Of a DNA stretch of 11,076 nt, positions 191-11,076 are shown in pieces. Where the stretch lies: assembly GCA_903831545.1 (NCBI GenBank), contig CAIKYI010000537.1:1-11076 (forward strand). Direction: 5' to 3'. Position numbers and translations under genes: made by a program. The DNA is from an uncultured Methylobacter sp. Its GTDB lineage: Bacteria; Pseudomonadota; Gammaproteobacteria; Methylococcales; Methylomonadaceae. The notes under the pieces are model-generated. The model had not been told where the DNA came from. It saw nothing but the letters and a program-made list of their open reading frames with translations, and did not search any database. Positions within the stretch are counted from its first letter, which is position 1; every line of letters starts with the position of its first letter.

Positions 191-1033
191 ATGAAAACTA
201 AAAAAAATCAGTCGGGACTCACAGCCTTAGCTGCGTTGGCAACAATAATCAGCGCTACGCTAGTTTCACCAGATGCTAATGCAGCTGTCCTGCATGCCCC
301 AACCAGCGGTACCTTTACCATGAACCTCAATCGAGATGCGTTAATACCGTATGGTGGCGGTTATTATCTGTCTACTTTTTGGAACTCACTGGCCTCCGAT
401 TACAGTAATTTAATTAATACCGGAGATTATTTGATTAGTCAGCTCAACACTACGGAAATTTCAGCAGTTAATCGAGTATTCGATCTGATGGCCATTGGCG
501 TCAATCCAACCGGCCAGGCAAATCAGCGCTTCGTAAAGGCGACTTCCGCCAATTTTGTCATTGATTCGAGTACGCTGGCAGGCGTGGCTGACGCGCAGAT
601 AGGCATGACCGGCGTTCAAGGCGTTTACGCACCGAATTGGCCGCCTGGCGGCGCCGGCTTAGTCAATGGCGATTTTTCGGTGCTTTATGATACCGGTCGA
701 CAAACCAACGGTCGCACTGGCTGGTATTTGGCTAACAATATTTATTTTACGATGGCAGTTTACGAGTTAAGCAATTTAAGTGTTGCGTTTACTGAGGTCG
801 ACAACTGGCGACTTAGCGGCGATTTGTTGATGTCACCGGAAAATGGCGGAATGTTGCAAGGCGCATCGCTTAATAAGGTGGGTGATTTTTGCCTGGGTGC
901 CGGCAGTTATGCGGGTTGCGGGCAGGTAACAGTAGTTCCGGTGCCGGGCGCGGTTTGGTTGTTCATAACGGGCTTGGTGGGGGTGGTAGTAAACCGCAGC
1001 CGTAAAGCAGACCTGTTTCTTAAGGTTTCCTAA
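191..1033 (+). CDS. Secreted VPVPG-CTERM (PEP-CTERM-like) protein, paralog 1
   Basis: A 280-residue exported protein of unknown function. Residues 1-31 form a Sec signal peptide: basic N-terminus, hydrophobic core and an ANA|A cleavage site. The mature part begins with a T-F-T-M-N-L-N-R-D-A segment shared with the next two genes. The C-terminus has a short motif VPVPG (249-253), a hydrophobic helix and a basic NRSRK cluster, the tripartite PEP-CTERM/VPLPA-CTERM architecture that exosortases recognise to process and anchor proteins at the cell envelope. Eight residues follow the basic cluster, more than usual. It closely resembles the third gene (1962-2828): both carry GDFCLGxGSYxGCGQ just before the sorting tail, with two cysteines that may form a disulphide. 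AGGG at 182-185 is a suitably placed ribosome binding site. It is probably the first gene of a five-gene operon. No catalytic motif is recognised; a structural or matrix role is inference. Confidence 0.88.
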   Translation: MKTKKNQSGLTALAALATIISATLVSPDANAAVLHAPTSGTFTMNLNRDALIPYGGGYYLSTFWNSLASDYSNLINTGDYLISQLNTTEISAVNRVFDLMAIGVNPTGQANQRFVKATSANFVIDSSTLAGVADAQIGMTGVQGVYAPNWPPGGAGLVNGDFSVLYDTGRQTNGRTGWYLANNIYFTMAVYELSNLSVAFTEVDNWRLSGDLLMSPENGGMLQGASLNKVGDFCLGAGSYAGCGQVTVVPVPGAVWLFITGLVGVVVNRSRKADLFLKVS

Positions 1034-1088
1034 TGCTTCCTCGAAGTGCTTTTCAATTAGTGCAGTCTCAACTCTAAAAACTATAATT

Positions 1089-1937
1089 ATGAAAATCAAT
1101 AAACACCCCATTGTTCAACAAGCGCTAAGCGTCAGTGTCATTGCCATTTTTGGCTCACTGATTTCCATGCATACGCAAGCCGCAACGATAACAGGCGGAG
1201 CGCTAACCGTGAATCTGGATCGTGACGCAATCATTGCGGGAGTGATTCAAGATAAATACCCCGACACCCCGACTGTAGATTTCCCGATCTGTTGCAGGCC
1301 TTCACTTTACGTGGAAGAGTTTTTTGACGCTTCGTCGGCCTCAAAAACGTTTAGCGAACTCAGGGACGAAAATACCCCCAATCTTAATGATCTGGCATCT
1401 GATGAGATCTCCGCAGTTGGGCTTCAATATTCCGTAAACGAACCGAATATTTCGTTAATTCCCGCTGGTCGCCAGAATAGAAATACCACGTTTGGGTTCG
1501 ATCCGGCAGATTTGTTCGGTACTGCGACAGGCAGCATAGGTCTTGGTGGGGTGATACGCTTCCGGGTCGATGTTAGTCCTCCTTCCAACCGTATCCTGCT
1601 CGGCGACATGTCGCTGGCTTACGATTCGTCTCTTGAAGGCACGACACCAGGGCGCTCCGGTTGGTTAATCACCAACCATATCGGTTTCGATGCTGATGCG
1701 TTTGAATTATTCGATGTTACCACCCAGTTGACAGGAAACATTTTGACGCTTAACGGAAATCTTGGTTTCGGCTGGGGCTTCGATCATCTTGGCGCAACTG
1801 CAGCTCGCTTGAATGATACTCGAATCGGCACTTTCAGTTTTCAAACCACAGTAGTTCCGTTGCCTGCCGCAGTCTGGATGTTCGTGACCGGAGTGTTTGG
1901 CTTTAGCGTCATGAATTATCGTAAACGGCAGGTATAA
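1089..1937 (+). CDS. Secreted VPLPA-CTERM protein, divergent paralog 2
   Basis: A 282-residue exported protein of unknown function. A signal peptide ends near TQA|A (residue 31). A classic tail VPLPAAVWMFVTGVFGF followed by NYRKRQ occupies about residues 256-282 and marks it as an exosortase substrate of the VPLPA-CTERM type. It shares landmarks with its neighbours: LTVNLDRDA near residue 40, DEISA, GDMSLAYD and SGWLITNHIGF. It lacks the CLGxGSYxGCGQ element of the first and third genes, and instead has an adjacent cysteine pair (PICCRP) near residue 76. It starts 55 bases after the previous stop, and no good Shine-Dalgarno sequence is visible before the ATG (AACTCTAAAAACTATAATT precedes it); no better in-frame start is seen. 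It is likely co-transcribed, perhaps translated less efficiently. Function unknown. Confidence 0.85.
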   Translation: MKINKHPIVQQALSVSVIAIFGSLISMHTQAATITGGALTVNLDRDAIIAGVIQDKYPDTPTVDFPICCRPSLYVEEFFDASSASKTFSELRDENTPNLNDLASDEISAVGLQYSVNEPNISLIPAGRQNRNTTFGFDPADLFGTATGSIGLGGVIRFRVDVSPPSNRILLGDMSLAYDSSLEGTTPGRSGWLITNHIGFDADAFELFDVTTQLTGNILTLNGNLGFGWGFDHLGATAARLNDTRIGTFSFQTTVVPLPAAVWMFVTGVFGFSVMNYRKRQV

Positions 1938-1951
1938 ATCACCTTATTTAT

Positions 1952-1955
1952 GGAG
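1952..1955 (+). promoter_or_regulatory. Ribosome binding site that decides the start of paralog 3
   Basis: GGAG lies six bases before the ATG at 1962. An ATG at 1950 is in the same frame but would place this motif inside the coding sequence and has no Shine-Dalgarno of its own. The start at 1962 also gives a more typical signal peptide. Confidence 0.7.
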
Positions 1956-1961
1956 AACACA

Positions 1962-2828
1962 ATGAACACCAATAATGGAAAATCTCATCAATTTCTTACT
2001 GCACTGCCTTTGTTGCTTACTGCAAGTATCGCAACCCTGGCGCCGAATGCTGCAATGGCTGCCATACTGAATGCCAGTTTGGGTGGTACTTTTATAATGA
2101 GTATGGACAGAGACGCCCTGGCACTTTCCGTTCAAGGCAGCCCAAGCAATCCTGGCAATTTTTTAGTTCACTATTACGATACGGCAGAATCGGATTACAC
2201 AACCCGTTCCGATTCATCATTTTATTTTAACAATCCCTTGCGCACTGAAATTTCTGCGTTGAATCTTGTGCATGCTATCACTCCTGTCAGTGCTGCCAAT
2301 CCAACCGGGCAAGCCTCAAATCGTTATGTCAAAGCAACTACGCAAGATTTTGCTATCGATTCGGATTCACTGACCGCGACCGGCATGCTGGGTATGACCG
2401 GAATTGAGTTGTATAAAGGGCTTTATAACGGCGCGCTAATCTATGGCGATTATTCACTGCAATACAATCCCGGTAACCGTGCGGCGGCCTGGGAAGATTA
2501 TGGCTTGGCGCTAGCACAGCCCAGTGGCTGGTATTTGCAAAATAACGTCAGTTTTAGTGTGGTGACCTACGATTTTGCTAATTTAACTGTCGTCGCTAGC
2601 GATGCCAATAACTGGAAGCTCAGTGGAGATTTGTTGTTGAGTCCCGAAAACGCGGGCTTATTACAAAACACGATTCAGCGCGATGTCGGGGATTTTTGTC
2701 TGGGTACCGGTAGTTATTCGGGTTGCGGTCAGGTCAGTGCCGTTCCTGTACCTGCCGCCGCCTGGTTATTTGTGTCGGGATTGGCAAGCTTGGGTTTTTC
2801 CGGTTTGCGCCGTAGGAGATTTCAATGA
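1962..2828 (+). CDS. Secreted VPVPA-CTERM (PEP-CTERM-like) protein, paralog 3
   Basis: A 288-residue exported protein of unknown function (292 if the ATG at 1950 were used). The signal peptide ends at AMA|A (residue 33). The tail VPVPAAAWLFVSGLASLGF plus LRRRRFQ (about 261-288) is a full VPLPA-type sorting signal. Along its length it matches the first gene: FxMxxxRDAL, TEISA, NPTGQAxxRxVKAT, GMTG, SGWYLQNNVSF, NNWKLSGDLLLSPENAG and GDFCLGTGSYSGCGQ. The two are therefore clear duplicates, with the second gene a more distant relative. The stop overlaps the start of the next gene in an ATGA, which argues strongly for translational coupling and one transcript. No enzyme motif is seen; being an envelope-anchored or matrix protein is inference from the sorting tail. 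Confidence 0.88.
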   Translation: MNTNNGKSHQFLTALPLLLTASIATLAPNAAMAAILNASLGGTFIMSMDRDALALSVQGSPSNPGNFLVHYYDTAESDYTTRSDSSFYFNNPLRTEISALNLVHAITPVSAANPTGQASNRYVKATTQDFAIDSDSLTATGMLGMTGIELYKGLYNGALIYGDYSLQYNPGNRAAAWEDYGLALAQPSGWYLQNNVSFSVVTYDFANLTVVASDANNWKLSGDLLLSPENAGLLQNTIQRDVGDFCLGTGSYSGCGQVSAVPVPAAAWLFVSGLASLGFSGLRRRRFQ

Positions 2829-4498
2829 ACTGCAAAAAAATCTCACTGCGTTTAGTCGGTGACTTTAAGCTAAGCCTGTTGATGCTACTGATTACTGGTT
2901 ACAATGCAGCGCAGGCCGATGCTGCTTCGCAGGTTGGTTTTGAAGGCTATACCAGCGTACAAATGAATGTTGATGCCTTCGGACAAAATATTGTTGGCGA
3001 TGCCGCTCACGAGCCGACTATCGCCTTTGATCCCAACAATCCGGACAAGTTAGTCACCGGTTGGAAACAGTTTGGTACGGTGTTGTCCGGAAATCGTCAA
3101 GGCGGTTGGGCTTACAGTGATAATGGCGGTAAAAACTGGCATTTTGAAGGTGTGCTAACACCTGGAGAGCAGCGGACCAATATCATGGTCGATGTCGATT
3201 CCAGTGGAAATTTTTATTATCAGAACCTGCATTACGGCCCAGGTGGCGATTACGCCCAAGATGTGCAAGTTTTCAAGTCAGTCGATAGCGGTGTGAGTTG
3301 GTGGGAGCCGGTATATGCCTACGGTAAAGGTGCCGACAAGGGGCGCATTGGCATTGATCGCAGCGGTACGTCCAGCGACGGACATATCTACGTGCATTGG
3401 CGGGAAGGCCTGGATGACAGGCACTTCACCCGATCAACCGATTTCGGTGTTAGCTTTGACGAACCGGTCAGTATTCCGGGTCGACCGGCCTTTGGCACTA
3501 TTGCGGTTGGACCGGAGGGGCAGGTTTATATTGGCGGCAGAAACGAGATCGGAACCTTGACAGGCGCAAAACTGGTATTTGGAGCCTATCTGTTTTCAAC
3601 TTCGCTGAATGCCCGTGACCCATTGGCTACTTCGAGTTTTACAACTCAGGAAATCAATCTGGGCGGTTCGCCGGTGATGTTTCAATTTCAAAATAATCCA
3701 AATCAGTTTGGGCCTTTAGGCGATGTACAGGTTGGCGTCGATCAATCTAACGGGCCGCTACGCGGTAATATTTATGTGCTGGCCTCGGTCGATCCGGTCG
3801 GCGTCGACAACCAGGACGTCAATTTTATTCGCAGTACCGATGGTGGAATAACGTGGTCGACGCCTCTAAAAATCAACACTGACAAACCCGATCGAAACGC
3901 CTACCAATGGTTTGCGATGCAGGGTGTTGCGCCCAATTCACGTATTGATGCCGTGTGGTATGACACCCGTAACAGTCTGCAACCGGCGATTTCGCAATTG
4001 TTCTACGCTTACTCTTGGGACGGTGGCCAGACCTGGAGCCAGAATAAACCGGTCACGGCGCCGTTTGATACCCATATTGCTTATCCGCTGGGCGCGCAAA
4101 AACTGGGCGACTACACCCACCTGGTATCGGATGCGAATGGAGCGCATATCGCCTATTCCGCGACTTACAATGGAGAGCAGGACGTTTATTACCTCAATGT
4201 TTTTCCGGACTGTAACAACAACAGCTTATCGGATGTTCGCGATATTCAACAGCATAGCAGCGGCGACACCAACAGTAACCACATACCTGATTCGTGTGAG
4301 AACATCACGATAATTGGTGATCTGGATAGTGACCGGGATGTTGACCAACTGGATCTTAATAAGCTGTTGGCGGCCAGAAACAAGCCTGCATCCGGGCCGA
4401 ATGATCCAAGAGATCTTGACCAAAACGGCACTATTAATGCATTGGATGCTCGCAAGTTGACGCTGTTATGTACTCGTCAGCGCTGTGCAACACAATAA
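2825..4498 (+). CDS. Secreted Asp-box (BNR/sialidase-like) beta-propeller protein with C-terminal dockerin-like domain
   Basis: A 557-residue exported protein. A signal peptide occupies about residues 1-32 (AQA|D or ADA|A). Five Asp-box motifs (S-x-D-x-G-x-x-W/F) are visible: SDNGGKNW 98-105, SVDSGVSW 152-159, STDFGVSF 204-211, STDGGITW 337-344 and SWDGGQTW 397-404. They indicate a BNR/sialidase-type beta-propeller. Sialidase catalytic residues such as FRIP were not seen, so activity is not claimed. After the propeller comes a DCNNNSLSD...DTNSNHIPDSCE segment (462-492), a DxNxN calcium-binding type with paired cysteines. Two dockerin-like calcium loops follow, DLDSDRDVDQLD (499-510) and DLDQNGTINALD (530-541). 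There is no sorting tail, unlike its neighbours, so surface attachment would need a partner; the adjacent cohesin-like gene is the obvious candidate. AGGAGA at 2815-2820 is a strong ribosome binding site, and the start overlaps the previous stop by four bases. Annotators may call it exo-alpha-sialidase; treat that as fold-level only. Confidence 0.85.
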   Translation: MNCKKISLRLVGDFKLSLLMLLITGYNAAQADAASQVGFEGYTSVQMNVDAFGQNIVGDAAHEPTIAFDPNNPDKLVTGWKQFGTVLSGNRQGGWAYSDNGGKNWHFEGVLTPGEQRTNIMVDVDSSGNFYYQNLHYGPGGDYAQDVQVFKSVDSGVSWWEPVYAYGKGADKGRIGIDRSGTSSDGHIYVHWREGLDDRHFTRSTDFGVSFDEPVSIPGRPAFGTIAVGPEGQVYIGGRNEIGTLTGAKLVFGAYLFSTSLNARDPLATSSFTTQEINLGGSPVMFQFQNNPNQFGPLGDVQVGVDQSNGPLRGNIYVLASVDPVGVDNQDVNFIRSTDGGITWSTPLKINTDKPDRNAYQWFAMQGVAPNSRIDAVWYDTRNSLQPAISQLFYAYSWDGGQTWSQNKPVTAPFDTHIAYPLGAQKLGDYTHLVSDANGAHIAYSATYNGEQDVYYLNVFPDCNNNSLSDVRDIQQHSSGDTNSNHIPDSCENITIIGDLDSDRDVDQLDLNKLLAARNKPASGPNDPRDLDQNGTINALDARKLTLLCTRQRCATQ

Positions 4499-4513
4499 AA
4501 AACTAAATGTTAC

Positions 4514-4519
4514 GAGGAA
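4514..4519 (+). promoter_or_regulatory. Ribosome binding site that decides the start of the cohesin-like gene
   Basis: GAGGAA is positioned five bases before the ATG at 4525. An in-frame ATG at 4507 lies upstream of it and has no comparable motif, so 4525 is preferred. Confidence 0.75.
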
Positions 4520-4524
4520 TTAAA

Positions 4525-5124
4525 ATGATCAGCCCATTGTACAAACTAGTAATAGCAACAGTTTTGCTGTCGACAACCGGAATTGCCAATTCCGCAATCA
4601 GTCTGAGCTTTAATCCGCAAACTCAAGTCGACTCTTTAATCGGTATAGGAATAATCATTTCAGGACTTGGTGCCAGTTCCGCTCCATCCATTGCTACTTA
4701 CGATCTTGATATTCTTTTCGACGCCAGTCATTTGGCCTTTGCAAGTGCTGAACTGGGCGATCACCTAGATATCTTTCATTTAGGCACAAACTTAACAACT
4801 GTCGGTTTAACCGGTCCCGGTGTTTTGAATATTTATGAGTTATCGTTTGATTTACCGGATGATTTAAATACTGTACAGAGCGATAGTTTTACCTTGGCGG
4901 TATTAAATTTCGACGTGCTAAATGCCTACAGCAGTCAATTGAACCTTGTCGTCAATGCGTTGGGAGATGCTGACGGTAATCCACTGGTAGCCAATGTGTC
5001 ATCTGCGGTAATTAACCCCGTGCCGTTGCCCCCCGCATTTTTTATGATGAGCTCAGGTCTGTTTAGTCTGGTAGCCATAAGGAAAAAGCGCCCTAACCAG
5101 GTTGTGATGACAAACTGGAGTTAA
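4525..5124 (+). CDS. Secreted cohesin-like domain protein with VPLPP-CTERM tail
   Basis: A 199-residue exported protein (205 if the ATG at 4507 were used). The signal peptide ends at about residue 23 (ANS|A). Residues ~25-160 are all-beta with the layout of cohesin-like domains. ISLSFNPQTQVDSLIGIGIIISGLG is followed by a YDLDILFDASHLAF strand pair, the pattern seen where cohesin-family proteins have a first-strand 'D-L-x-Y/F-D-P/A-x-x-L' segment. A late FTLAVLNFDVL strand and NALGDADGNPL complete it. The tail VPLPPAFFMMSSGLFSLVAIRKKR (from ~166) is a variant VPLPA-CTERM signal, with PP in place of PA and ten residues after the basic cluster. It starts 26 bases after the dockerin-bearing propeller gene. 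The pairing suggests that this protein is the envelope-anchored receptor for that dockerin. The cohesin assignment is made by eye and should be tested with a profile; the signal peptide and sorting tail are clear. Confidence 0.75.
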   Translation: MISPLYKLVIATVLLSTTGIANSAISLSFNPQTQVDSLIGIGIIISGLGASSAPSIATYDLDILFDASHLAFASAELGDHLDIFHLGTNLTTVGLTGPGVLNIYELSFDLPDDLNTVQSDSFTLAVLNFDVLNAYSSQLNLVVNALGDADGNPLVANVSSAVINPVPLPPAFFMMSSGLFSLVAIRKKRPNQVVMTNWS

Positions 5125-5707: not shown

Positions 5708-7393
5708 ATGCGTGAACCATCCCTGGCCGGGTTACCGAAGTCTGGTTTAGCCGGTTTAAAAGAAAATTGGCGTAGCGATTTGCTCTCCGGTTTTCTGGTT
5801 TTTCTGATAGCCTTACCGTTGTGCCTGGGTATATCGATGGCGTCCGGTTTTCCGCCATCGGCCGGTATTATCACGGAAATTATCGGCGGGATGCTGGTGT
5901 CGCGGATTAATGGTTCTTATATAACCATCAATGGGCCGGCGGCGGGACTGATCGTTGTGGTACTCAGTGCCGTGCAGGACTTGGGTGAAGGCGATGCCAT
6001 GGCGGGCTATCGCTATGCTTTGGCGGCTATTGTTGTTGCCAGCGTCATACAAATTTTAATGGGTTTTTTTAAGGCGGGTCGACTTAGTTCATTTTTTCCT
6101 GCATCAGTGATACATGGTATGTTGGCGGCTATCGGCATTATTATCATGGCCAAACAAATTCATGTCATGCTGGGTGCGGCGCCAGAGAAAGGCAGTAGTC
6201 TGTTTTCGACGATTGCTCAAATCCCGCACAGTGTGCTTAATCCTAATTATGAAATTGCCATTATTGGTATTACCGGACTGTTGATACTTATTAGCTGGTC
6301 AATGGTTAAAAATCCGTTGTTAAAAATGATTCCGGCGCCACTGCTTGTGGTGTTGGCTGGTATCGGTTTTGCGCGTTATTTTGATCTGAATCATGAGCAT
6401 ATGTATTTGTTTCTGCCCGATGCGAGTTTTTTAACGCATCATGAAGAAACCATCGGACCGAAATTCTTGGTTGCGATTTCCGAAGACTTTATGTCCGGTT
6501 TTTATTTTCCCGATTTTACAAAAATGGCTTCCCTGGAGTTCTGGGAAGCGGTCGTTAGCATTAGTCTGGTCGGTAGTCTTGAAAGTTTACTCAGCACCAT
6601 GGCAGTCGATAAACTGGATCCGTATAAACGCCATTCTAACCTTGATCGTGATCTGGCTGCGGTAGGAGCGGGAAATTTGTTGGCAGGATTAATTGGCGGT
6701 TTGCCGATGATAGCCGAGATTGTGCGGAGTTCGGCTAACGTAAACAATGGGGCGAAAACCCAGTGGGCCAACTTTTTTCATGGCACGTTATTACTGTTAT
6801 TTGTGGTATTGTTTCCTAGGCTGATTCATAGTATTCCTCTGGCGGCATTGGCTTCATTGCTGGTATTTACCGGTTTTCGCCTGGCGTCCCCCAAATCTTT
6901 CGCCTCAGTTTTACTGATCGGTAAAGAACAGCTGTTTATGTTTGTTGTAACCATTATCGGGGTGTTGGCGACTGATTTATTGATTGGTGTGGGTATTGGC
7001 ATCATAACCAAGTTCGCGATTCATATGTTGCGTGGAGTCAGGCCAAATAATCTGTTTAAGATTCATTTTGTTATTGAACCCAAAAACGCCGATTCTGTTG
7101 TAGTTTCGATAGTGGGGTCGGCTCTTTTTTCAAACTTCATGTCTTTGAAGACTGCCCTGGCTAATCTGGAAAATGGCAGGACGGTTATATTTCAATTGAA
7201 CAATGCCTATCTGATCGACCATACCGTTATGGAATTTATTCATGATTTTCAGCATAACTATGAAAGCCACGGTGGTAAATGCCAGTTTTTTGGCATGGAG
7301 TATCATGATACTTTTTCCTCACATCCTTTAGCCGTGCGTAGAATGCGACGGGACAATATGAGTCGTCGTAAAAGCGATCATTACGGGGTGTGA
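5708..7393 (+). CDS. SulP-family inorganic anion transporter with STAS domain (bicarbonate transporter candidate)
   Basis: A 561-residue inner-membrane transporter of the SLC26/SulP family. A cytoplasmic N-terminus with NWRSDLLSGFLVFLIALPLCLGIS (about 20-43) opens the membrane domain. It continues with GFPPSAGIITEIIGGMLVS and the ITINGPAAGLIVVV segment, typical substrate-site elements of the family. Residues ~285-323 carry the diagnostic SLESLLSTMAVDKLDPYKRHSNLDRDL stretch. About ten or more hydrophobic segments run to ~residue 440, then a STAS domain (about 455-535) and a basic tail. The family moves sulfate, bicarbonate and other anions. Close bacterial relatives with this sequence style are often proposed to be Na+- or H+-coupled bicarbonate importers, but substrate cannot be read from sequence. 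GAGG at 5697-5700 supports the start. It lies upstream of a Hyf-type membrane module, 260 bases away, so a link to inorganic carbon or ion-gradient use is possible but not shown. Confidence 0.92.
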   Translation: MREPSLAGLPKSGLAGLKENWRSDLLSGFLVFLIALPLCLGISMASGFPPSAGIITEIIGGMLVSRINGSYITINGPAAGLIVVVLSAVQDLGEGDAMAGYRYALAAIVVASVIQILMGFFKAGRLSSFFPASVIHGMLAAIGIIIMAKQIHVMLGAAPEKGSSLFSTIAQIPHSVLNPNYEIAIIGITGLLILISWSMVKNPLLKMIPAPLLVVLAGIGFARYFDLNHEHMYLFLPDASFLTHHEETIGPKFLVAISEDFMSGFYFPDFTKMASLEFWEAVVSISLVGSLESLLSTMAVDKLDPYKRHSNLDRDLAAVGAGNLLAGLIGGLPMIAEIVRSSANVNNGAKTQWANFFHGTLLLLFVVLFPRLIHSIPLAALASLLVFTGFRLASPKSFASVLLIGKEQLFMFVVTIIGVLATDLLIGVGIGIITKFAIHMLRGVRPNNLFKIHFVIEPKNADSVVVSIVGSALFSNFMSLKTALANLENGRTVIFQLNNAYLIDHTVMEFIHDFQHNYESHGGKCQFFGMEYHDTFSSHPLAVRRMRRDNMSRRKSDHYGV

Positions 7394-7490
7394 GTTTTAA
7401 AAGTCTTAACAACTTTTCACTACCAAGACATGGGATTAAGCGCACTTCGATTTTGGGGTGAATAAATCACTTTTAATTGGTAAACATAGC

Positions 7491-7510
7491 TCCCTTTGAA
7501 AAAGACGGGT
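7491..7510. repeat. Second copy of REP-like repeat core (inverse orientation)
   Basis: The 11-nt core CTTTGAAAAAG at 7494-7504 is the exact reverse complement of 4-14, and both copies have C and G runs on their flanks. Here the flanking stem is less complete. It lies in the gap between the SulP gene and hyfB. Two copies in 11 kb suggest a dispersed intergenic repeat family. Confidence 0.45.
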
Positions 7511-7581
7511 TGCAACGGATAAGTTCCACCTGCCCCTGCTTTCCAACGAAGAATAAGCAACAGTACACTTACTTTAATCGC

Positions 7582-7601
7582 CATGTTTCTGGGTAAACAT
7601 G
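7582..7601. promoter_or_regulatory. Inverted repeat upstream of hyfB (possible operator)
   Basis: CATGTTT (7582-7588) and AAACATG (7595-7601) are perfect reverse complements with a 6-nt centre. The right half is part of GGTAAACAT-GCTC, which also occurs with one extra base at 7479-7492. The site ends about 50 bases before the hyfB start, where a regulator could bind. No promoter hexamers were convincingly placed. Confidence 0.35.
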
Positions 7602-7653
7602 CTCAGAAGCGGGTGATATTAAAGTTTACACAATATGTTTGAGTGAGAATTTT

Positions 7654-9780
7654 ATGATCCTTGTATTAGCTTATGGCGCTGTTCTTCTGAGCTTTGCTTC
7701 AGGTCTGCTGGCTTTGCTGATGAATCAGCGCCAGGCTGCACTGGAGTTTAGCCAGTTCATTAACGAAAAATTTCCTGGCGGCAATCAATGCTGTAGAGCT
7801 TTGCTGGCTAACTGTCTGGAAGAAAAGAAGTTCCCTGACAGGTTGCGAAAAGCGGTGTTTGTCTTGCTGGGGTTGTCCGGTGTTTTTGCGACCTTAGCCG
7901 GGTTAAGCGTGTTGCTCAGTCAACAAGTTGTCACCGATCAGCTGGGCCTGGGCTTACCATGGTTGCCCTGGCATGTGCGCTTTGACTGTCTGTCCGGTTT
8001 TTTCTTTTTAATAATCGGCATTGCGGTCAGTGCGGTCAGTCTTTACGGGCCGGGCTATGTCAATAGTTATAATGATAGCCAGCATCCTTTTGCGGTTCTG
8101 GGGTTGTTTACGGGGCTTTTCGTTGCCGGAATGTTGCTGGTGCTGTTGGCCGATGACGCGTTCTTTTTTATGATCGCCTGGGAATTGATGTCGGTTGCCA
8201 GTTATTTTCTGGTGGCGTTTCAGCATGAGAATTCAGCCAATCGTCGGGCCGCATTTATTTATTTATTGATGGCCGAAGTGGGCGCTTTAGCCATTATTCT
8301 GGGTTTTGGTGTCCTGGCCAGTTTTAGCAATGGTTTTACTTTTGATGCGCTGCGCGAGGCGCATTTATCATCAACCTGGGCCAGTATCGCCTTTATGTTG
8401 GCGCTTTTGGGTTTTGGCATGAAAGCCGGGATTGTTCCCGTGCATGTCTGGTTACCTGAAGCGCACCCTGTCGCACCCTCGCATATTTCTGCCTTGATGA
8501 GCGGCGTGATGCTTAAGGTCGCGCTCTATGGACTGATTCGTTTTTGTTTTGATTTGCTTGGCGATGTTCAGTGGCAGTGGGGCGTGGTGTTGTTGATACT
8601 GGGTACAGTTTCGGCGTTGGGCGGTATTTTGTACGCGATGATGCAAGCCAATTTAAAGCGCCTGCTGGCTTACAGTTCGGTAGAAAATATCGGTATCATT
8701 TTTATGGTGCTGGGTCTGTCGATGATTTTTATGGCCAACGGTCATCCTAAATTGGCTGCGTTGGGTTTGTTGGCGGCGTTGCTTCATGCGTTTAATCATG
8801 CCTTGTTCAAGAACTTGTTATTTCTGGGGGCTGGTATTCTTCATCATCAAACCCATCAGTTAAATATCGATATGATGGGTGGCCTGATAAAAAAAATGCC
8901 TAAAACCAGTGTGTTGTTTTTGATCGGTTGTATGAGTATCTCTTCCTTGCCGTTGTTTAACGGTTTTGTTTCCGAATGGCTGGCTTTTCAGACTGCCTTG
9001 CAGGTCGATGTGCTGGATAATGGTGTGTTGCGCAGTTTGATACCGGTTGCGGCAGCCGCTTTAGCCTTGACCGCAGCGTTGGCGGCCGCCTGTTTTGTTA
9101 AAGTTTATGGCATGATCTTTTTGGGACAGTCCCGTTCGCATTATTGCGATAAAGCGCATGAGATTCAGGATAAAGGCATGCTGGCAGGCTCTGCGCTGCT
9201 GGCAGCTTTATGTTTTGTTTTTGGCGTTTTTCCCGGATTGATCATCAGTCTGATCAATAATGTTGCCGGACAGTTATTGGGCGAAACCTTGCCCAATGAA
9301 GGCGCTTTAGGCTGGTTGTGGCTGGCACCGGTTTCAAGTGCTCAGGCTTCTTATGCGCCGCCTCTGGTATTGATTGGTGCGTTGCTTGCAGCCGGTATTT
9401 GTTTTTGGTTTTTACGACGCAATCCTTCAACAGTGATGCGTCGGGCAGAAACCTGGGATTGCGGTTATGGTGGATTAACGCCGAAGATGCAATACAGTTG
9501 CAGTGCCTTTACCATGCCTTTTCGCAGGATTTTCAGTAAAGTCTGGATTATTGACGAACAAATAAAAAAAGACATGCAAGGCGCCATGAATCAGGATGTT
9601 GCAGCGGTGCATTATCATCTTGAAGTGAGTGATCATACCTGGCCGCTTTTATATCAACCGATTGAACGCGCTGTAAATCTTACCGCAGCCACGGTAGGAC
9701 GAATTCAAACAGGGAATATCCGAACCTATCTGGGTTACTCGTTTGCGACTTTAATACTTATGTTATGGGTGATCAGCTGA
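7654..9780 (+). CDS. hyfB: Hydrogenase-4 component B-like proton-translocating subunit
   Basis: A 708-residue inner-membrane protein of the Mrp/NuoL/HyfB antiporter-like family, the ion-pumping arm of group 4 hydrogenase and formate hydrogenlyase-type complexes. Conserved charged residues sit in membrane helices: Glu177 (AWELMSVASYF), Lys257 (GFGMKAGIVPVHVWLPEAHPVAPSHIS segment), Lys288 (SGVMLKVALYG), Lys386 with nearby His (HAFNHALFKNLLF) and Glu441 (FVSEWLAFQ). The C-terminus from ~599 (ETWDCGYGGLTPKMQYS, then SAFTMPFRRIF) is the HyfB-specific extension, distinguishing it from NuoL and DabB. Between the first two helices there is an unusual soluble stretch of ~45 residues with paired cysteines (about 22-68). 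The ATG at 7654 is preferred, with GAGTGAG at 7641-7647 as a weak binding site; a TTG at 7639 would add five residues. The stop shares one base with the hyfC start. Catalytic hydrogenase subunits are not in the window, so the complex's redox partner is unknown. Confidence 0.92.
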   Translation: MILVLAYGAVLLSFASGLLALLMNQRQAALEFSQFINEKFPGGNQCCRALLANCLEEKKFPDRLRKAVFVLLGLSGVFATLAGLSVLLSQQVVTDQLGLGLPWLPWHVRFDCLSGFFFLIIGIAVSAVSLYGPGYVNSYNDSQHPFAVLGLFTGLFVAGMLLVLLADDAFFFMIAWELMSVASYFLVAFQHENSANRRAAFIYLLMAEVGALAIILGFGVLASFSNGFTFDALREAHLSSTWASIAFMLALLGFGMKAGIVPVHVWLPEAHPVAPSHISALMSGVMLKVALYGLIRFCFDLLGDVQWQWGVVLLILGTVSALGGILYAMMQANLKRLLAYSSVENIGIIFMVLGLSMIFMANGHPKLAALGLLAALLHAFNHALFKNLLFLGAGILHHQTHQLNIDMMGGLIKKMPKTSVLFLIGCMSISSLPLFNGFVSEWLAFQTALQVDVLDNGVLRSLIPVAAAALALTAALAAACFVKVYGMIFLGQSRSHYCDKAHEIQDKGMLAGSALLAALCFVFGVFPGLIISLINNVAGQLLGETLPNEGALGWLWLAPVSSAQASYAPPLVLIGALLAAGICFWFLRRNPSTVMRRAETWDCGYGGLTPKMQYSCSAFTMPFRRIFSKVWIIDEQIKKDMQGAMNQDVAAVHYHLEVSDHTWPLLYQPIERAVNLTAATVGRIQTGNIRTYLGYSFATLILMLWVIS

Positions 9781-10724
9781 TGAACTGGTTAATAGCAATT
9801 TTACAAACCGCCTTGTTTGTTGCCCTGGCACCTTTACTCGCGGGCTGGCTTAAATGGTGCAAGTGTTATTTACAAAACCGCAGAGCGCCTTCTCTTTTGC
9901 AGCCTTACCGGGACTTGCTTAAATTAACCAATAAACAGCCGGTGGTTGCCGAGCAGGCGTCCTGGATTTTTTTGATTGCGCCTTACATTATATTCTCTGC
10001 TACGGTGCTGGCTGCGACCGTCGTGCCTTTTATCGCTGTTGATTTACCGACCTCGGCAAGCGCCGATGTAATTGTGCTGGTGGGTTTTTTTGCGTTTGCC
10101 CGGTTTTTTCTGGCGCTGGCAGGCTTGGACATAGGTACTGCTTTTGGCGGCATGGGTTCGTCACGGGAAATGACCATTTCCTCTCTGGCGGAACCTGCGA
10201 TGTTAATGGCTATTTTCACTCTGACCATGACCGCCTCGACAACCAATTTATCGTTTGCCATAACTCATGTGTTGAACGAAGGGTTGGTATTACGACCTTC
10301 GTTTGTGTTTGCCTTGTCGGCACTGGTTCTGGTGGCTATCGCAGAAACCGGGCGCATACCGGTGGATAATCCTGCGACGCATTTGGAGTTGACCATGATT
10401 CATGAAGCGATGATTCTCGAATACAGTGGGCGGCATTTAGCGTTGATTGAATGGGCAAGTCAATTAAAACTGATGCTGTATGGCGTACTGATAGCCAATA
10501 TCTTTTTCCCCTGGGGAATTGCCGAAGCCTTTAGTGCAGAAGCGCTGGGATATGGGGTTTTGGCAATTGTCGGCAAGCTTGCCATACTTGCTGTTTTTTT
10601 GGCGATTGCGGAAACGCTGGTGGCAAAAATGCGCTTGTTTCGGGTGCAGGAATATTTAAGTTTTGCTTATTTGTTAGGTTTGCTGGGTATGTTGAGCCAT
10701 ATCATTCTGGAGGCATCGAGATGA
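9780..10724 (+). CDS. hyfC: Hydrogenase-4 component C-like (NuoH-type) membrane subunit
   Basis: A 314-residue inner-membrane protein of the NuoH/HyfC/HycD family, which connects the pumping subunit to the catalytic arm of hydrogenase-4-like complexes. Family landmarks are clear. The N-terminal helix is followed by NRRAPSLLQPYRDLLKLTNK (33-52), and FGGMGSSREMTISSLAEPAML (122-142) is present. AETGRIPVDNPATHLELTMIHEA (188-210) holds the conserved acidic residues at the subunit interface, followed by MILEYSGRHLALIEWASQLK. Length is usual for the family. The ATG at 9780 overlaps the hyfB stop by one base, with GGTGAT upstream as binding site; an in-frame ATG at 9765 would add five residues and overlap hyfB more. 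The stop overlaps the outer edge of an inverted repeat. The expected next genes of such clusters (hyfE, hyfF, hyfG, hyfI) are not seen intact here. Confidence 0.93.
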   Translation: MNWLIAILQTALFVALAPLLAGWLKWCKCYLQNRRAPSLLQPYRDLLKLTNKQPVVAEQASWIFLIAPYIIFSATVLAATVVPFIAVDLPTSASADVIVLVGFFAFARFFLALAGLDIGTAFGGMGSSREMTISSLAEPAMLMAIFTLTMTASTTNLSFAITHVLNEGLVLRPSFVFALSALVLVAIAETGRIPVDNPATHLELTMIHEAMILEYSGRHLALIEWASQLKLMLYGVLIANIFFPWGIAEAFSAEALGYGVLAIVGKLAILAVFLAIAETLVAKMRLFRVQEYLSFAYLLGLLGMLSHIILEASR

Positions 10725-10799
10725 GGACGGATCAAGGTTCAAGGCAAAAACCGCGCATTGTATTTCTCTCATCCTTGCACCTTTAACCTTGGACCTCAT
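10721..10799. repeat. Imperfect inverted repeat between hyfC and the next frame
   Basis: ATGAGG (10721-10726) pairs with CCTCAT (10794-10799). Further in, CAAGGTT (10733-10739) pairs with AACCTTG (10785-10791), and AAGG (10741-10744) with CCTT (10773-10776). The arms are broken by small bulges around a central ~28-nt loop. The repeated AAGGTT/CCTTG units resemble dispersed intergenic elements. It starts inside the hyfC stop, spacing the following frame 77 bases away in an otherwise tightly packed operon. It may be an inserted repeat. Confidence 0.55.
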
Positions 10800-10801
10800 A
10801 C

Positions 10802-11076
10802 ATGAACATTGAACAACTGGATTTTTATAATCAGGCCATTTTATCAATGGCTGCCTTGGTAGGACTTACCTCGTTTCTGATGTATGTACTTATGAATACA
10901 TTTGGTATTGGATTTGACGTTGACATTAGTAATGATCGAATAGTTGAAGGATTTAATGCCGGTGAATTCAATTTTAAACCAGTCCCTAGTTTTACACCCG
11001 TTCCTGGTTTTACACCTTGGCCAAAGGATCTGATTCGGCGCTTCAACATTTATCAAAAAACAATAAATGAAAACAA
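10802..11076 (+). CDS. Unrecognised membrane-anchored protein, partial (possibly an altered hyfE)
   Basis: An open frame from an ATG at 10802 to the window end, at least 91 residues, with no stop reached. Residues ~12-35 form one hydrophobic segment (AILSMAALVGLTSFLMYVLMNTFG). The rest to the edge is hydrophilic. It includes three six-residue units, FKPVPS, FTPVPG and FTPWPK (residues 58-75; DNA 10973-11026). HyfE, which would be expected after hyfC, has several membrane helices in a row, so the part after residue ~35 does not fit it. The first 120 bases are about 35-38% G+C by hand count, against about 50% in a sampled 60-base stretch of hyfC. No good ribosome binding site precedes it. It may be an unrelated inserted gene, a hyfE interrupted after its first helix, or a lineage-specific protein; I do not recognise it. 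Confidence 0.4.
   Translation, partial: MNIEQLDFYNQAILSMAALVGLTSFLMYVLMNTFGIGFDVDISNDRIVEGFNAGEFNFKPVPSFTPVPGFTPWPKDLIRRFNIYQKTINEN

Follow-up and report, generated by a model that had tools for sequence, protein, structure and literature searches.

Among the anchoring scaffoldins, OlpA is attached by SLH, and ScaE and OlpA each carry a single cohesin. ScaE of Ruminococcus flavefaciens is described as a cell-surface scaffoldin that is anchored by sortase via a C-terminal sorting motif (PMC12484212), and a Lachnoclostridium is reported to have proteins with one cohesin and a membrane helix at the C-terminus (PMC11557425). Cohesin-dockerin modules are also reported outside cellulose degradation, in Archaeoglobus fulgidus and in anaerobic methanotrophic (ANME) archaea, where archaeal pairs were shown to bind and where S-layer-dockerin proteins were proposed to fasten proteins onto the cell surface (PMC9012536). 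Some of these archaeal systems have several cohesins per protein, and the available text of that account describes neither an exosortase tail nor a cassette of a single cohesin plus cargo (PMC9012536). For PEP-CTERM proteins, the sorting substrates of exosortase (EpsH), the main text of the founding paper mentions neither cohesin nor dockerin (PMC1569441), and both are likewise absent from the accessible part of a report that ties an exosortase gene to exopolysaccharide in a Methylomonas strain (PMC11072679). Here we describe two adjacent genes of an uncultured Methylobacter sp. (assembly GCA_903831545.1, contig CAIKYI010000537.1), one for a propeller protein ending in a dockerin and one for a cohesin with an exosortase-type tail. 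They lie in a stretch of 11,076 nucleotides, which is the window referred to throughout.

We propose, with a probability of roughly 0.77, that the two genes form an envelope display cassette, in which a sorted cohesin docks a dockerin-bearing cargo that has no sorting tail. What is established here is the identity of the modules, the division of labor between their tails, and the conserved linkage of the genes across lineages in which the cargo changes. In the proposed scheme, the propeller and the cohesin, both with signal peptides, would be exported by the general pathway, and the exosortase of this genome would recognize the VPLPP tail of the cohesin and cut it. As expected from the PEP-CTERM literature, the cut cohesin would remain attached to the outer envelope or the exopolysaccharide, or be released there. 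The tail-less propeller would then be held by calcium-stabilized docking of its dockerin onto the cohesin, as in known cohesin-dockerin complexes. We infer by analogy the binding of this particular pair, its need for calcium, and the cleavage of the cohesin tail by exosortase. The arrangement is like that of the anchoring scaffoldins in that an envelope-anchored cohesin, here predicted from sequence, receives a dockerin protein. Those scaffoldins, however, are anchored to the Gram-positive wall by LPXTG sortase, SLH, or other means and serve mostly in cellulase complexes, whereas here the tail is of the PEP-CTERM type and the cargo is a propeller. With the archaeal systems it shares the use of these modules outside cellulose degradation. 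It resembles exosortase substrates in its signal peptide, C-terminal motif, helix, and basic end, and in the presence of an exosortase in the genome; unlike in known PEP-CTERM sorting, the sorted protein would be a socket for unsorted cargo.

The receptor gene (4525..5124, + strand) encodes a signal peptide, a single cohesin domain, and a VPLPP exosortase-type tail, as read from the open reading frame (ORF), the alignment, the profile, the structural model, and the tail test. Its open frame begins at 4507 (4507-5124); the homologues shown in the alignment begin at the second Met, at 4525, and GAGGA stands just 5' of this start. The tail (5020..5091, + strand), visible in the sequence, the model, and the tail test, consists of VPLPP, a hydrophobic helix (residues 177-193 in the 205-residue model), and basic residues. 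By the pattern test, the protein shows all four features of a PEP-CTERM substrate (signal peptide, motif, hydrophobic helix, and basic end), and no listed PEP-CTERM model matched it over its cut-off. The exosortase of the genome was detected with PF09721 (G000:C787, expectation value [E] 3.9e-71). Searches of the PDB with either window protein as a single sequence returned nothing useful, and profile searches succeeded. The profile of the cohesin alignment matches the NagJ cohesin (E 9.5e-4) and 5nrk (E 0.022), and 33 of the 51 members of this alignment match PF00963 at E <=0.1. All 50 VIA-align matches listed for the modelled receptor, and all 50 Foldseek matches listed, are cohesin entries, including 2xdh; the predicted fold is a cohesin jelly-roll, one face of which bears an invariant Asp66. 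An earlier note, made from the sequence of the window, had read this product as cohesin-like with a signal peptide and a VPLPP tail, and the alignment profile, the fold, and the tail test agree with it.

The cargo gene (2825..4498, + strand; 557 aa) encodes a signal peptide, an Asp-box beta-propeller, and a C-terminal dockerin, supported by ORF, Pfam, alignment, and model. The pattern test finds no sorting tail on it, and both ORFs are where the earlier note had placed them. The two dockerin-like loops that it had pointed out proved to be conserved: D499, D503, D507, and D510 of loop 1 (residues 499-510; 4319..4354, + strand) and D530 and D541 of loop 2 (residues 530-541; 4412..4447, + strand) are invariant in 31 aligned sequences. 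An artefact of chance or composition was excluded because of this invariance. In the predicted structure, a helix follows each loop (508-516 and 539-548), which gives the two calcium loops, each with its helix, of a type I dockerin. The domain is closed by a two-cysteine cap from Cys549 to Cys554 (CTRQRC; 4469..4486, + strand), both cysteines being invariant in the same 31 sequences; canonical dockerins are not known to have such a cap. Pfam Dockerin_1 (PF00404) matches the propeller protein at residues 498-545 with E 0.0088 and 16.7 bits, against a cut-off of 22.9. A profile made from 28 dockerin tails retrieves solved dockerins first (2y3n_B, E 2.9e-8; best calmodulin, E 0.001), and 26 of these 28 related tails match PF00404 at E <=0.1. 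The window tail is thus related in sequence to type I dockerins. Structure matches show that the propeller fold resembles CylK, PLL/PHL lectins, and BT3686-type glycosidases, and sialidases too; judging from the model, the likely role of the propeller is to bind or cleave a glycan, which may be the exopolysaccharide of the cell itself.

Sorting tails are found on the cohesins and not on the dockerin proteins. The tail test was loosened after a stricter version had missed clear VPxP ends on inspection. In its loosened form it finds a sorting-like tail on 49 of 52 cohesin ORFs, on none of 85 dockerin ORFs, and on 60 of 670 other ORFs of the same loci; the stricter version gave 36/52, 0/87, and 47/670, respectively. 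Such a split would follow if cohesins serve as the address and dockerins as the ticket.

A fair test of the linkage is provided by the 41 loci (L109-L149) that were picked in GTDB genomes by cohesin sequence alone; loci L069-L108 are biased for linkage because they were selected around dockerins. A dockerin ORF is present in 36 of the 41, in line with the expectation that the two genes co-occur in other genomes. The records of the dockerin-bearing loci include ones labelled Gammaproteobacteria, Desulfobulbaceae, Desulfobacteraceae, and Geobacteraceae (the last three being deltaproteobacterial groups), Nitrospira, Thermodesulfovibrionia, Deferribacteres, and Phycisphaerae. Over both locus sets, 46 of 57 cohesin ORFs have a same-strand dockerin ORF no more than 700 bp away, the cargo coming first in 38 and the cohesin in 8. 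Removal of identical cohesins and short dockerins left 43 pairs (35 cargo first, 8 cohesin first), among which near-identical ones remain and some loci represent one genome twice. The carrier bodies of these pairs fall into 22 clusters and, since one cluster is an empty body at a contig edge, into 21 dissimilar kinds. The Pfam domains on the 32 carriers scanned include BNR, PASTA, lamin-tail, endo/exonuclease, PKD, and Ig-like. An Asp-box cargo, as the earlier note had it, is true of the window pair, but carriers elsewhere are not only Asp-box propellers; the constant parts across the loci are the sorting tail and the two docking modules. That the linkage is simply one inherited operon without functional meaning would fit the recurrence of the propeller-cohesin run in Methylococcales (L072, L082, L083, and L090; loosely L069). 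This is very improbable given the 21 carrier-body clusters, the occurrence of both gene orders, and the span of the records from Gammaproteobacteria and deltaproteobacterial groups to Nitrospira and Phycisphaerae.

The position of the dockerin bears on another explanation, in which the dockerin-like end is a sorting, secretion, or stability tag and the neighboring cohesin-fold protein does something else and is merely co-expressed. A C-x(3-5)-C cap ends 39 of the 43 paired dockerins, and some dockerin genes have no adjoining cohesin, both of which favor a tag. However, the same module also occurs near the N-terminus (within residues 25-114) in large carriers encoded next to a cohesin, with the cap in L117, L122, L079, L140, and L147 and without it in L086; some of these carriers extend past the end of the locus. 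The dockerin is thus not only a C-terminal tag and, because five of these dockerins have the cap, the two cysteines belong to the domain and are not a tail signal. The pairing with cohesin also persists while the carriers change, and we consider the tag explanation improbable.

The window is contig C537 of a genome of 3.64 Mb in 805 contigs (72.7% complete), in which the dockerin profile has three matches (C537, C211, and C554), each followed immediately by a cohesin gene. On C760, a gene for a CxxCH protein ending in a dockerin of another subtype (PF00404 E 1.6e-6) is likewise followed immediately by a fourth cohesin-like gene (cohesin-alignment E 4.8e-9; PF00963 E 0.0043, below cut-off). The earlier note had envisaged one cohesin capturing one Asp-box protein. 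The pairing of cohesin with dockerin is supported, but it is not single, as this genome holds at least four such pairs, all cargo first. At the 72.7% completeness of the genome, four cohesin genes were detected; each holds one cohesin, and none is a multi-cohesin scaffoldin of the cellulosome kind.

These pairs also bear on whether the cohesin could be a general receptor for several dockerin proteins, with adjacency mainly a matter of co-regulation, which we regard as possible but doubtful. It is favored by genome G066, where the dockerin-tail profile has six hits (L070-L074): in three the very next gene encodes a cohesin or a tailed cohesin-like protein, a fourth comes after a cohesin gene within one gene run, and the other two are solitary. 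In the window's genome, however, the three dockerins are 33-49% identical and each stands beside its own divergent cohesin, the three cohesins being 21-28% identical. Cohesin and dockerin modules diverge together, with a correlation between their distances of r 0.60 over the 43 pairs, 0.41 between different carrier clusters, and 0.44 (p 0.0002) with one pair per cluster. The divergence among the pairs of the window's genome fits separate, possibly orthogonal, pairs.

The display cassette was also followed through 121 genomes of the order, where dockerin tails occur in 36, cohesin-alignment matches (tail-only ones included) in at least 43, PF00963 in 17, PF00404 in 36, and exosortase in 85. When cohesin is counted as a core-spanning alignment match or PF00963, with tail-only genomes excluded, 31 of the 121 genomes have one among the matches listed, and all 31 also have dockerin and exosortase. 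Of 28 PF00963 matches, 19 lie within 3 kb of a dockerin, where about 0.001 per match is expected for an assumed mean genome of 4.2 Mb. That any PEP-CTERM gene adjoins dockerins was considered and rejected, as only 12 of 102 tail-only matches are near a dockerin and 90 are not, among the matches listed. The matches of these 12 start between positions 121 and 130 of the profile, and their frames are 189-217 aa long, two of them interrupted by a stop. Two of them are PF00963 hits, and we infer that the other ten are divergent cohesins; some of the 90 others have similar frames.

At the level of the class, PF00963 was found in 22 of 369 genomes and PF00404 in 42. Of eight stand-alone tailed cohesin loci, seven (L165, L169, L170, L173, L179, L180, and L181) have a dockerin ORF within ~0.8 kb and L167 has none; the independent flagged count is 4/5, because L170 and L180 are the window's genome and L179 is unflagged by the tail test. 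Among 22 other class-level loci, a dockerin is detected by profile nearby or in the same frame in six (L155, L158, L162, L166, L176, and L177), and nine more match the loose loop pattern only.

Several observations weigh against the display cassette. The window cohesin, although matched by alignment profile and fold, is not recognized by PF00963 alone, even at E 1, and the window dockerin tail alone scores 20.1 bits with PF00404 against the cut-off of 22.9. No dockerin was found by profile in 5 of the 41 cohesin-selected loci (L109, L127, L137, L138, and L145); in L109, L127, and L138 the cohesin is at the contig edge. Co-divergence and co-occurrence partly reflect shared descent. At 16 of the 22 untailed class-level PF00963 loci there is no dockerin by profile, and a pairing rule for all PF00963 proteins was rejected. 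In the order, 85 of 121 genomes have no dockerin-tail match and, among the matches listed, 10 have a dockerin but no detected cohesin. The cassette is patchy within the genus too, since neither the dockerin-tail profile nor the cohesin alignment has a match in any of the six other genomes sampled from it. A cohesin-alignment match lies within 1.5 kb of only 40 of the 87 dockerin-tail hits, counted with 56 such matches among those listed (48 core-spanning, 8 partial). Many of the remaining hits have a divergent tailed protein next downstream. An alignment of 21 such neighbors, some of them already matched by the first cohesin profile, gave an hhalign probability of 99.8 to the cohesin alignment, with the shared tail in the aligned part, and PF00963 recognizes 11 of these 21 at E <=0.1. 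No cohesin-like tailed gene lies next downstream of dockerins ending in LRLCRPTRR or LRLCYPTRR, or of the extra dockerin genes in G066 and G090 (L070, L071, and L075); the unpaired genes of these two genomes hint that a single cohesin may receive several cargoes in trans.

Other forms of the two modules were also observed. Dockerins with basic ends, mostly the LRLCRPTRR or LRLCYPTRR just named, form a class seen in L076, L085, L087, L091, L094, L095, and L097. A second dockerin subtype ends in approximately PGPS(G) or PGP (L108:2464-12305, L006:1194-2582, L098:3913-5382, and L169:2059-3240), and L108 has four dockerin ORFs of this subtype downstream of two tailed genes. Among the untailed class-level PF00963 proteins of L152-L160, L163, L168, and L172, many are large and have no dockerin by profile, and several carry loose loop-pattern matches in the same frame; the untailed proteins are a different use of cohesin. 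Single proteins with both cohesin and dockerin and no sorting-like tail (L092:10303-13278 and L149:4894-9255) are possible adaptors or self-assembling chains. Multi-cohesin proteins occur in the relatives G104 (C22:73852-75635) and G113 (C1:2435133-2436041), where several PF00963 hits lie near one another, at least two in one long frame, with no dockerin hit within 3 kb. The GH48 cellulase gave no match in the 121 genomes, and none in the control genomes either.

In the window, five same-strand (+) genes span 191-5124, with intergenic gaps of 55, 12, -4, and 26 bp. The first three (191-1033, 1089-1937, and 1950-2828) encode secreted proteins with PEP/VPLPA-type tails, and the third overlaps the cargo gene by ATGA. 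That these other secreted proteins carry their own tails, as had been noticed from the sequence, holds by the pattern test, and none of the tails reaches a curated model cut-off. The three proteins have no Pfam family over cut-off, and tailed genes likewise lie upstream of the propeller in L069, L072, L082, L083, and L090. An NCBIfam scan of the five proteins gave weak, sub-cut-off matches only. From 5708 to 11074, Pfam identifies a SulP transporter followed by antiporter-type and NADH-dehydrogenase-like membrane subunits, probably a separate operon; the last ORF, cut at the window edge, has no Pfam match.

Anchored cohesins, non-cellulosomal cohesin-dockerin pairs, and PEP-CTERM sorting are each known, and their union, as predicted here, would be the new part. 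A literature search that covered few subscription papers returned nothing joining dockerin and PEP-CTERM, with or without cohesin, and the literature on methanotrophs and dockerin, judged by titles and abstract openings, held nothing on such a pairing. The novelty of this union is not proven, the main survey of noncellulosomal modules being outside the literature searched.

We consider it rather likely that the window pair belongs to a widespread form of Gram-negative display, in which exosortase-sorted cohesin sockets each stand beside a cargo with a matching capped dockerin. A secreted protein would then gain a surface address through a dockerin instead of a tail of its own, with several orthogonal pairs per cell. 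Two questions become testable in this way, namely, the purpose of exosortase substrates and the function of cohesins and dockerins outside cellulosomes. If the proposal is true, environmental bacteria from several lineages would use cohesin-dockerin pairing for something other than cellulose degradation, and the presence of several pairs per cell would offer a source of new orthogonal binding pairs. A recognizable group of PEP-CTERM proteins would likewise gain a function, that of carrying other proteins.

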